From positions 1 through 33,875 of the forward strand of contig JAMPIG010000039.1 of NCBI GenBank assembly GCA_023662875.1: DNA of 33,875 nucleotides, written 5' to 3'. Both the position numbers and the translations under genes were made by a program. Under the pieces are notes generated by a model that was not told where the DNA came from, ran no database searches, and saw only the letters and a list, made by a program, of their open reading frames with translations. This document shows positions 18,615-21,791 of the stretch, piece after piece. How positions within the stretch are numbered: the stretch's first letter is position 1; every line of letters begins with the position of its first letter. The stretch comes from Roseburia sp. Its GTDB lineage: Bacteria; Bacillota; Clostridia; Lachnospirales; Lachnospiraceae.

Positions 18615-18664
18615 AACGACAGCAGGCGTTCCCTTGAAGGTTGGCGGGAAGAAGGGAGCGGCAT

Positions 18665-19741
18665 ATGGGATTTGAGTTGGATGACAGGATGGTAATCGGG
18701 GTTTCCTCCAGGGCGCTGTTTGACCTGACGGCGGAGAACGAGATCTTTGAGACGCAGGGGCTGGAGGCGTACTGTAGGTATCAGGTCGAGCATGAGCAGG
18801 AAATTCTCAAGCCCGGGCCGGGCTTTAGGCTGATCCGGTCGCTTTTGAAGCTGAACGAGTACGGCGGGGGGCAGGCCTTGACGGAGGTCATTATCATGTC
18901 CCACAACAGCCCGGATACGTCGCTCAGGGTTTTTAACAGCATCGCCCATTACGGCCTCCCCATCACGCGGTCTGTGCTGGTGAGCGGCGCTTCGCTGGGG
19001 CCGTACCTTGCCGCCTTTCAGACCGACCTCTTTCTGTCGGCCTGCGAGGAGGATGTACAGTGCGCCATAGACGCGGGAATCGCGGCGGGGATTATCTGTA
19101 CGGAAGGCGTGCCGGCTTATGGGATGTCTTCTCATGCGTCAGGCGGGCCGCTGCAGGACGGGCCGGAGGCGGGCGGTACGCTTCGGCGGTCGTTTCAGGA
19201 CGGCCGGGAGGGAGAAGGCGCGTCTCGGGGACAGCTCTTGGGCGGGGAGGAAGAAAGCCTGCGGCGAAGCAGGCGGATTATACCCATGCCGCAGGCGGCG
19301 GGGCAGATCCGGCTCGCCTTTGACGGGGACGCGGTACTGTTTACGGACGAATCGGAGCAGATTTTCCAGGAACAGGGCTTAAGCGCGTTCGAGGAGAATG
19401 AGAGGCTGCACGCGAGGGAGCCTTTGGCGGAGGGACCCTTTGCCAGCTTCCTGAAGAAGCTCTCGGATCTGCAGAGAAGGCTGGGGACGGAAGACTGTCC
19501 TATCCGGACGGCGCTGGTGACATCCCGAAGCGCACCGGCCCACGAGAGGGTTATTCGAACCATGCGGGCTTGGAATGTGCGGGTAGACGAGGCGTTTTTC
19601 CTGGGTGGGCTGGATAAGCGGGATATCCTGAGGGCCTTCGGGGCGCAGATTTTCTTTGACGACCAGGTAAAGCATACCCAGAGCGCGGCGCAGGCCGTAC
19701 CTGCGGCCAGGGTGCCTTACCGGAGGGCGTCGGCGCGGTGA
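18665..19741 (+). CDS. 5'-nucleotidase family protein
   Basis: The 358-residue product matches the bacterial 5'-nucleotidase family (PF06189 type): VIGVSSRALFDLTAENEIFE near the start, EVIIMSHNSPDTSLRVFNSI, SALVTSRSAPAHERVIRTM-like and the C-terminal QIFFDDQVKHTQSAA. Such enzymes dephosphorylate nucleoside monophosphates in the cytoplasm. ATG 18665 is preceded by AGGGAG; an upstream in-frame start at 18641 is weaker. A charged insertion (about residues 160-205) carries a degenerate 14-residue tandem repeat and is not usual for the family. Confidence 0.85.
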   Translation: MGFELDDRMVIGVSSRALFDLTAENEIFETQGLEAYCRYQVEHEQEILKPGPGFRLIRSLLKLNEYGGGQALTEVIIMSHNSPDTSLRVFNSIAHYGLPITRSVLVSGASLGPYLAAFQTDLFLSACEEDVQCAIDAGIAAGIICTEGVPAYGMSSHASGGPLQDGPEAGGTLRRSFQDGREGEGASRGQLLGGEEESLRRSRRIIPMPQAAGQIRLAFDGDAVLFTDESEQIFQEQGLSAFEENERLHAREPLAEGPFASFLKKLSDLQRRLGTEDCPIRTALVTSRSAPAHERVIRTMRAWNVRVDEAFFLGGLDKRDILRAFGAQIFFDDQVKHTQSAAQAVPAARVPYRRASAR

Positions 19742-19868
19742 ACGTGGCGCGGAAGCGGACTATTCGGGGCGTACCCGGGCTGGCTGAGGCTTGGTGAATT
19801 TTCCGGTTCGCGATATCGATTTAGGACGATTACGTCATATGGGCGGAAAAGCGGAAAAGGGTATAATA

Positions 19869-21791
19869 ATGAAATATATCGAGATAGAAAAGGGGCGGTT
19901 CCAACAGCGCCCCAACCGGTTTATCGCTTACGTCGAGCTAAACGGCAGGAGCGAGAGGGTTCACGTAAAAAACACGGGACGGTGCAGGGAGCTGCTAACG
20001 CCGGGAGCCGCGGTATACCTGGAAAAGGGCCGAAATCCCGGCCGTTCTACCGCTTACGACCTGATCGCGGTGGAAAAGGGAGAGCGGCTGGTCAATATGG
20101 ATTCCCAGGCACCCAACCGGGCGGTGGAGGAATGGCTTCGTTCGGGGGGACTTTTCCCGGAAACGACCCTGATCCGGCCGGAGACGGTTTACGGAAACTC
20201 CCGGTTCGACTTCTATGTGGAGACGGCGGAGGAAAAGATTTTTATCGAGGTAAAGGGAGTTACCCTGGAAGAGGAGGGAGTGGTTCGTTTTCCGGACGCG
20301 CCCTCCGAGAGAGCGGTAAAGCATGTGGAGGAGCTGATTGCGGCGAAACAAAGCGGTTACCGCGTTTTTGTGCTGTTTGTCGTCCAGATGGAAGGGGTAA
20401 AATACTTTACGCCGAACCGGGATACGCATCCTGCCTTTGCGGAGGCGCTCTGCCGGGCGGCGGAGGCGGGGGTGGAGATTCTGGCCTATGACTGCGCTGT
20501 GACGCCGGATTCCATGAGGCTCCGCTCCCCCGTGCCGGTGCGGCTGGGAGTTGAACCGCCGGAAGACGAGGCTGCTTCTGCGGATGATTTCCGGGGGAAG
20601 GCCGATCCGAGTTTGGAGACACCCGGTTTCGTCGGCGGAGGGCGGGAAAACGTTCCGATCCGCTTTCGTGAATCTTTAGAGGATATTAAGGGAACTTTAA
20701 GGCTTGCGGGCATTCCCAAACCGCTTCTGGAATGGTATGATAGGAGCAGAAGAATCCTTCCCTGGAGGGAGGAGCCCTCGCCCTACCGGGTGTGGGTGTC
20801 GGAGATTATGCTGCAGCAGACCAGAGTCGAGGCGGTGAAGCCGTATTTTAAACGGTTTATGGAGGCGCTGCCGGATATCCGGGCTCTGGCGGAGGCCGAC
20901 GAGGAGCGGCTTTTGAAGCTCTGGGAGGGGTTAGGCTACTATAACAGGGCGAGAAATCTGCAGAAGGCGGCGGTTCGAATTCAGGAGGATTACGGCGGAG
21001 AGATGCCCTCCGAGTACGAGGAGCTTTTGAAGCTTCCGGGGATCGGAAGCTATACGGCGGGGGCAATTTCCTCTATCGCTTACGGAAAAAAGCATCCGGC
21101 GGTGGACGGAAATGTGCTGCGGGTGCTCTCCCGGATCCGGGAGGACGAAAGGCCGATCACGGACGGGAAGGTTAAGACGGCGGTGGAAGAGGAGCTGTCG
21201 GAGGTCATGCCGTCGGATCGTCCGGGGGACTTTAATCAGGCGATGATGGAGATCGGGGCCTGCGTCTGCCTGCCAAACGGCGCGCCCCTCTGCGGCGGAT
21301 GTCCGCTGACTTCCCTTTGCCTTGCCTGCGCCCGCGGGACGCAGGCGGACTTCCCGAAAAAGGAAGGGAAAAAGGAGAGGAAGATTCTGGAGAAGACGAT
21401 TCTGGTCATCCGGGACAGGGACAGGACGGTAATCCGCAGGAGGGCGGAGAAGGGACTGCTGGCGGGGATGTACGAGTTTCCGACGCTGGAGGGCTTCCGC
21501 ACGGCGGAGGAGGTGGCCTCGTATCTGGCCGGGAACGGAATCCGGGTATTGAGGATTCTGCCCCTGGAGGACGCCAGGCATATTTTCAGCCACAGGGAAT
21601 GGCACATGAAGGGCTATATGATCCGTGTGGACGAGCTGGAGTCCGGAGAACCGGGAGAGGATACGAGGGACTGGCTGTACGTCGAACCGGCCGAGACGGA
21701 GGAGAAATATCCCATCCCGTCGGCCTACGCCGCTTATACCAGGAGCCTGAGCATCCGACTGGGGAAGGAAAGATATAAGGAGGACTTGTAG
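19869..21791 (+). CDS. SfsA-MutY fusion: DNA-binding/nuclease SfsA domain joined to A/G-specific adenine glycosylase
   Basis: One uninterrupted 640-residue frame holds two proteins. Residues 1-230 are SfsA (RFIAYVELNGRSERVHVKNTGRC, RLVNMDSQAPN, SRFDFYVE followed by FIEVKGVTLEEEG), a PD-(D/E)xK-like DNA-binding/nuclease family. Residues 265-640 are MutY: Glu312 in SEIMLQQT, the helix-hairpin-helix LPGIGSYTAGAI, catalytic Asp413 in VDGNVLRV, a Cx7Cx2Cx5C iron-sulfur site, and a C-terminal NUDIX-like recognition domain. MutY removes adenine opposite 8-oxoG. ATG 19869 is where SfsA proteins start. The glycosyltransferase gene begins at the next base after its stop codon. Confidence 0.93.
   Translation: MKYIEIEKGRFQQRPNRFIAYVELNGRSERVHVKNTGRCRELLTPGAAVYLEKGRNPGRSTAYDLIAVEKGERLVNMDSQAPNRAVEEWLRSGGLFPETTLIRPETVYGNSRFDFYVETAEEKIFIEVKGVTLEEEGVVRFPDAPSERAVKHVEELIAAKQSGYRVFVLFVVQMEGVKYFTPNRDTHPAFAEALCRAAEAGVEILAYDCAVTPDSMRLRSPVPVRLGVEPPEDEAASADDFRGKADPSLETPGFVGGGRENVPIRFRESLEDIKGTLRLAGIPKPLLEWYDRSRRILPWREEPSPYRVWVSEIMLQQTRVEAVKPYFKRFMEALPDIRALAEADEERLLKLWEGLGYYNRARNLQKAAVRIQEDYGGEMPSEYEELLKLPGIGSYTAGAISSIAYGKKHPAVDGNVLRVLSRIREDERPITDGKVKTAVEEELSEVMPSDRPGDFNQAMMEIGACVCLPNGAPLCGGCPLTSLCLACARGTQADFPKKEGKKERKILEKTILVIRDRDRTVIRRRAEKGLLAGMYEFPTLEGFRTAEEVASYLAGNGIRVLRILPLEDARHIFSHREWHMKGYMIRVDELESGEPGEDTRDWLYVEPAETEEKYPIPSAYAAYTRSLSIRLGKERYKEDL

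Follow-up and report, generated by a model that had tools for sequence, protein, structure and literature searches.

MutY is a DNA enzyme: its excision reaction creates an abasic site across from 8-oxoguanine, a product that slows the enzyme. SfsA, which carries the NCBI name DNA/RNA nuclease SfsA, is represented by solved chains (4da2 and 4dap) and was predicted to combine an OB domain with a PD-(D/E)XK nuclease fold; in the accessible text of that work its mechanism was left unassigned, and a report of non-specific DNA binding by SfsA was cited (PMC1189080). Two other papers mention SfsA only in passing in their accessible parts (PMC2743648 and PMC2948915), and neither a defined function of SfsA nor an assay of its nuclease activity was found in the literature searched. 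A description of an SfsA-MutY fusion was likewise not found in this literature, which covers few subscription journals; the architecture may already be listed in domain databases. Where SfsA and MutY appear together in the accessible text of PMC3135505, it is only in a transcription-factor table, with no fusion.

Here, we have analyzed a window of 33,875 nucleotides (the whole stretch of DNA examined) on contig JAMPIG010000039.1 of Roseburia sp. (GCA_023662875.1, labelled G000; 3.72 Mb in 151 contigs, 91.8% complete), in which SfsA and MutY are encoded by one gene.

Two complete families in one reading frame

The plus strand is free of stop codons from 19788 to 21788, and translation from the ATG at 19869 gives 640 residues. 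Another in-frame ATG lies further 5', at 19839; the one at 19869 was preferred because it provides the methionine of MKY in the consensus of the relatives and has AAAAGGG eight bases upstream. The gene, its parts and its neighbours are as follows.

18641..19741, plus strand: 5'-nucleotidase (PF06189), upstream neighbour; from Pfam, context only
19869..21791, plus strand: fused sfsA-mutY gene, 640 residues plus stop; from the open frame, Pfam and NCBIfam
19869..20543, plus strand: SfsA half, residues 1-225; from Pfam SfsA_N and SfsA, TIGR00230 above its cut-off, and conservation
20544..20708, plus strand: linker, about residues 226-280; ends set by the query halves chosen
20709..21788, plus strand: MutY half, residues 281-640; from Pfam, NCBIfam and conserved residues
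21792..22820, plus strand: family 2 glycosyltransferase, downstream neighbour directly after the fusion stop; from Pfam, context only

The preliminary description of this DNA had claimed that SfsA and MutY share one uninterrupted 640-residue frame, and this was borne out, both families being complete by Pfam and NCBIfam. In the SfsA half, SfsA_N (PF17746; OB domain, residues 13-77) and SfsA (PF03749; PD-(D/E)XK domain, 80-214) matched above their Pfam cut-offs, and the NCBIfam equivalog model sfsA (TIGR00230) scored 181.6 bits against a cut-off of 126.45. In the MutY half, HhH-GPD (310-442), HHH (375-402) and NUDIX_4 (511-624) all exceeded their Pfam cut-offs, and the equivalog model mutY (TIGR01084) scored 324.1 bits against 286.5. 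The linker had been put at 35 residues, which proved too short: residues 220-284, about 65, were matched by neither NCBIfam model. Neither an in-frame ATG nor any start codon accompanied by a 5-base Shine-Dalgarno motif is found near the linker. On the basis of profile searches, the fusion gene is the sole SfsA match and the sole MutY match above cut-off in this genome. A second HhH-GPD match, on another contig (C85), was weaker and did not reach the cut-off; it probably represents endonuclease III.

The catalytic Glu and Asp and the iron-sulfur cysteines that had been reported for the MutY half are indeed present. E312 and D413, which we take to be this catalytic pair, and C467, C475, C478 and C484, presumably the Fe-S cysteines, are the same letter in all 125 distinct aligned MutY rows, and all 51 distinct fused rows retain them. 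F573 and H575 are also found in 125 of 125 rows; the Roseburia sp. fusion reads FSH at 573-575, and we assume the NUDIX_4 domain with its FSH loop to be the 8-oxoG-recognising part of MutY. Set beside MutY as modelled by TIGR01084, the fusion agrees in reaching an equivalog-level score and in having the catalytic E and D, the Fe-S cysteines and a NUDIX-like domain with FSH, but it bears an N-terminal SfsA half, and its first two Fe-S cysteines are separated by seven residues rather than the six of the solved MutY chains to which it was aligned.

In the SfsA half, the putative active site consists of D114, E127 and K129. D114, E127 and R148 were unchanged in 52 of 52 fused rows (one row being a duplicate), whereas K129 was read in 51, the remaining row having an unread codon, and H152 was kept in 51. 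The half resembles SfsA (PF03749/TIGR00230; 4da2 and 4dap) in its OB plus PD-(D/E)XK arrangement with D, E and K, and differs in the attached MutY and at K60 of the OB domain, where the Roseburia sp. fusion has Ser instead of Lys (20046-20048). This lysine is lost in 18 of the 52 fused rows, including that of Roseburia sp., but every adjacent row (27 of 27) and 97 of the 98 rows from lone SfsA retain it; judging from the alignment, its loss could change or weaken SfsA.

We also computed dN and dS for 43 close pairs. Among the 25 most alike of them, dN was 0.13-0.22 in the SfsA half and 0.095-0.31 in the MutY half, and dS ranged from 1.35 upwards or was saturated. At the sequence level, dN is well below dS in both halves, and the putative active sites are retained. 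The preliminary description had asked about conservation of both linker and active-site residues; the putative SfsA and MutY active sites are kept, but the linkers vary in sequence and in length (6-60 residues) among the fusions.

Distribution within and beyond Lachnospiraceae

The sample of this family comprised 299 genomes, 155 of which were SfsA-positive. We classified the 150 SfsA match rows listed (L001-L030 and L111-L230; weaker matches lie outside this set) from the flanking DNA read to either side, which extended for about 1.5 kb at L001-L030 and 2.5 kb at the others, or less where a contig ended. A fusion to mutY was found at 33 of the 150 loci, including two incomplete cases (L144, a 492-residue frame with a short MutY, and L187, at a contig end). 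At 18 further loci, sfsA lay directly upstream of a separate mutY on the same strand, and at 99 no mutY was present in the flank read. The reverse order, mutY-sfsA on the same strand, occurred at none of the 150. A few pairs could have been missed, as fewer than 900 downstream bases were available at seven of the 99 loci without mutY. The view that the two families are normally separate genes does not hold for Lachnospiraceae, where 51 of the 150 listed loci are fused or adjacent, and co-occurrence in one chain, which the preliminary description had suggested looking for, was found at 33.

The same architecture at 33 loci argues that the fusion is not a chance product. Sequencing or assembly error is ruled out by this recurrence, by five fused loci from one-contig genomes (G035, G085, G191, G232 and G296) and by its occurrence in records of the named strains D16-50 and An118. 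The fusion recurs across many genera of the family, and all five other SfsA-positive genomes from the genus of the Roseburia sp. source carry it in the order sample (G022, G486, G501, G533 and G563); in one more genome of the genus, G568, SfsA was not found in that sample. The domain fusion is genuine and recurs, and Lachnospiraceae is the only family in which it was observed here.

Among the best 80 of at least 591 named loci that encode a relative, 20 were fused, 9 were adjacent and 50 had MutY without SfsA nearby; at L061, an SfsA fragment at the contig end lies about 1.5 kb before mutY. Identical SfsA and MutY stretches were shared by L017 and L062 (Robinsoniella peoriensis), L002 and L055 (Candidatus Merdenecus merdavium), and L030 and L048 (Hespellia sp.), in line with taking the sampled family as Lachnospiraceae. 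At the 29 named fused or adjacent loci, a glycosyltransferase-like ORF followed in 22, and the upstream ORFs were DUF1653 in 13 and 5'-nucleotidase-like in 10. Across the 299 genomes, 125 contained both SfsA and MutY, 30 SfsA only, 88 MutY only and 56 neither. Co-occurrence was higher than expected (odds ratio 2.65, p 0.0002), a figure not corrected for relatedness and in part produced by the linkage of the two genes.

SfsA was detected in 165 of 295 genomes of the order sample, 159 of 291 of the class sample, 148 of 249 of the phylum sample and 7 of 14 control genomes. Outside Lachnospiraceae, no SfsA-MutY fusion was observed among the matches listed for the order, class and phylum samples. 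Among the SfsA matches listed from outside this family, no frame of the order exceeded 344 residues; the longest frames of the class (484, 449 and 401 residues) were without MutY, and those of 484 and 401 residues are SfsA-HAD and SfsA-GNAT, respectively. The phylum check covered seven SfsA frames of 400-803 residues, none with MutY and three of them SfsA-DUF123; two frames of 386 residues (G856 and G940) and further ones of intermediate length lie outside it. No MutY match was obtained for the long SfsA frames L231, L234, L235, L241-L247 and L251. Among the matches listed, 41 class genomes outside Lachnospiraceae hold both genes; the genes were adjacent in none of the 38 in which both were positioned (G657, G804 and G822 fall outside this count), the nearest being about 73 kb apart (G828).

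SfsA has other fusion partners. A second recurrent fusion joins it to DUF123 (PF01986) in three genomes from two families of the phylum (L248:1600-2946, L249:1667-2887 and L250:1762-2961), and single frames join it to a HAD-like hydrolase (L232:449-1900, plus strand) and to a GNAT acetyltransferase (L233:2355-3557, minus strand). As in SfsA-MutY, SfsA is N-terminal and its partner C-terminal in all of these, but the partner is no glycosylase and the fusions come from three, one and one genomes, compared with 33 family loci for MutY.

DUF123 is tied to endonuclease III in archaea. A link by this route was unconfirmed: no paper on DUF123 with endonuclease III was found in the literature searched, and in the 13 of 139 genomes with DUF123, the six frames longer than 300 residues paired it with SfsA (three), GNAT-like (two) and nitroreductase-like (one) stretches. 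The GNAT-like (L262:754-1902, plus strand; L264:1210-2415, minus strand) and nitroreductase-like (L257:877-1890, minus strand) names were judged from sequence.

We also clustered the neighbours of lone sfsA at 91 of the 99 lone family loci, with L001-L030 left out. No other recurrent partner emerged from these loci, the largest gene-like clusters comprising only 12 and 11 of the 91. Larger clusters (65, 32 and 18 loci) were shadow ORFs antisense to sfsA, judged by strand, position and sequence. Near lone sfsA (for example, L159, L177 and L154), ORFs judged from sequence to be aldolase-like, FeoA-like and FeoB-like were seen at 12, 11 and 6 of the 91 loci, respectively.

A probable route from gene pair to fusion

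Junctions were compared in 27 split pairs (25 distinct) and 53 fused genes (52 distinct). In four split pairs (L009, L043, L047 and L163), the sfsA stop is followed immediately by a mutY ATG in the same frame; among the remaining pairs, the frames overlap in some and are separated by up to 184 bases in others. An ATG with a 5-base Shine-Dalgarno motif precedes mutY in 22 of the 27 split pairs versus 1 of the 53 fused genes. A hidden internal start for MutY in the fusion was largely rejected; an in-frame ATG near the junction is found in 15 of 53 fused genes, 1 of these with a 5-base Shine-Dalgarno motif, and any start codon with such a motif in 8. The difference between split and fused junctions suggests that most fused genomes produce MutY in no form other than the fusion. 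The preliminary description had stated that it would be overturned by close relatives in which the two genes are separate and a stop codon or restart occurs here. Such relatives exist, but they leave the fusion standing and suggest its source, that is, a gene pair that lost its stop codon. Less probably, split pairs arose by fission of an older fusion.

Trees were built for each gene and for a concatenated set of 47 rows (24 out of 51 fused, 23 out of 25 adjacent) picked after viewing the single-gene trees. The fused rows required eight changes of state in the MutY tree, five in the SfsA tree and five in the concatenated tree, gain and loss not being told apart; many branches are weak, and well-supported ones force at least three, four and one changes, respectively. 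A single origin of all fusions was rejected, in that one clade of fused rows gave an AU test p of 0.0194 with the 47 chosen rows, a result dependent on L011 and L149: p was 0.039 without L011, 0.055 without L149 and 0.217, compatible with one clade, without both. The rejection points to more than one change of state and probably to separate fusions. The series of separate, adjacent, overlapping and fused genes offers suitable material for following the conversion of gene pairs into fusions.

Possible roles of SfsA beside MutY

Since the fusion is real, keeps its putative active sites, occurs in many genera and is matched by pairs with sfsA upstream of mutY, a functional link between SfsA and MutY can fairly be inferred. 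The preliminary description had gone further in reading such a link from the fusion itself; recurrence and adjacency speak for it, but a fusion alone is weak proof, because SfsA has HAD, GNAT and DUF123 as fusion partners elsewhere and no MutY match at E 1e-50 was obtained in 30 of the 155 family genomes with SfsA. The same 30 genomes indicate that SfsA has work without MutY.

AP endonucleases were searched for in 62 chosen genomes (34 fused, 13 of 18 adjacent and 15 with separate genes), fused and adjacent genomes less than 90% complete being left out. In the fused genomes, Nfo and Xth each exceeded the cut-off in 31 of 34 and at least one did so in all 34; both were present in 13 of 13 adjacent genomes, and in the separate-gene genomes each was found in 11 of 15 and at least one in 15 of 15. 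Thus, no such role is left vacant for SfsA in the fused genomes tested, and replacement of AP endonucleases by SfsA is not supported. The Roseburia sp. source genome has Xth and no Nfo (TIGR00587) match; of two genomes in the same genus, G486 has no Nfo match and G563 has one below the cut-off, with Xth in both.

The explanation we place highest, though at somewhat less than an even chance, is that, in Lachnospiraceae, paired sfsA and mutY genes were joined into one, probably on more than one occasion, by losing the sfsA stop codon and the mutY start signals, and now encode a two-headed base-excision-repair protein. Adenine paired with 8-oxoguanine would be excised by the MutY half. The OB/PD-(D/E)XK SfsA tethered to it would work on that DNA too, its most likely action being to nick or trim close to the resulting abasic site, beside the normal AP endonucleases and not in their place. 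The single frame, the complete families, the kept sites, dN below dS, the tight sfsA-first pairs, the rarity of mutY start signals in fused genes and the nuclease fold predicted for SfsA (PMC1189080) agree with this, whereas the retention of Nfo/Xth, the 99 of 150 listed loci without mutY, the other SfsA fusions, the loss of K60 and the starts remaining at junctions (an in-frame ATG in 15 of 53 fused genes) count against it. Alternatively, the fusion may only be an arrangement for expression, a coupled operon of genes needed in similar amounts whose stop codon was lost neutrally and whose halves act independently. This has a real, if minority, chance of being right: the tight, overlapping junctions make fusion easy by a small change, the linkers are unlike in length and sequence, and SfsA occurs without a MutY match in the 30 genomes above. 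However, the pairing in Lachnospiraceae would still want a reason, with the two genes close in 0 of 38 class genomes of other families, and fusion seems to recur, as the fused rows do not form one clade (AU p 0.019).

It is rather improbable that SfsA serves as a DNA-binding tether only, its OB domain and an inactive or slow nuclease fold raising the dwell time of MutY or its hand-over to Nfo/Xth. The non-specific DNA binding reported for SfsA (cited in the accessible text of PMC1189080), the canonical AP endonucleases kept in fused genomes and the K60 loss in 18 of 52 fused rows would all fit, but the fused rows keep the putative catalytic D, E and K, for which a simple tether would have no use. 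Action of SfsA on RNA or on another DNA lesion, with MutY linked through shared regulation, for example in oxidative or iron stress, is a distant prospect; the NCBI family name and the FeoA-like ORFs (names judged from sequence) near 11 of 91 lone sfsA loci lean that way, whereas MutY works on DNA and shared regulation needs no physical fusion. A further-reaching reading, which we consider unlikely, would make SfsA the missing strand-processing partner of MutY, with excision and nicking carried out beside Nfo/Xth and lone SfsA doing the same job in trans elsewhere. If so, the fusion would be a self-contained enzyme in which adenine excision opposite 8-oxoguanine is followed by a PD-(D/E)XK cut of the same strand.

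Each half is a typical member of its known family, and their joining yields a useful clue to SfsA, not a system of a new kind. SfsA is widespread and its structures are solved; the recurrent MutY fusion and the gene pair tie this poorly understood protein to DNA repair and provide a specific hypothesis for its substrate, DNA with A:8-oxoG or its abasic product, which could be tested with one purified protein.
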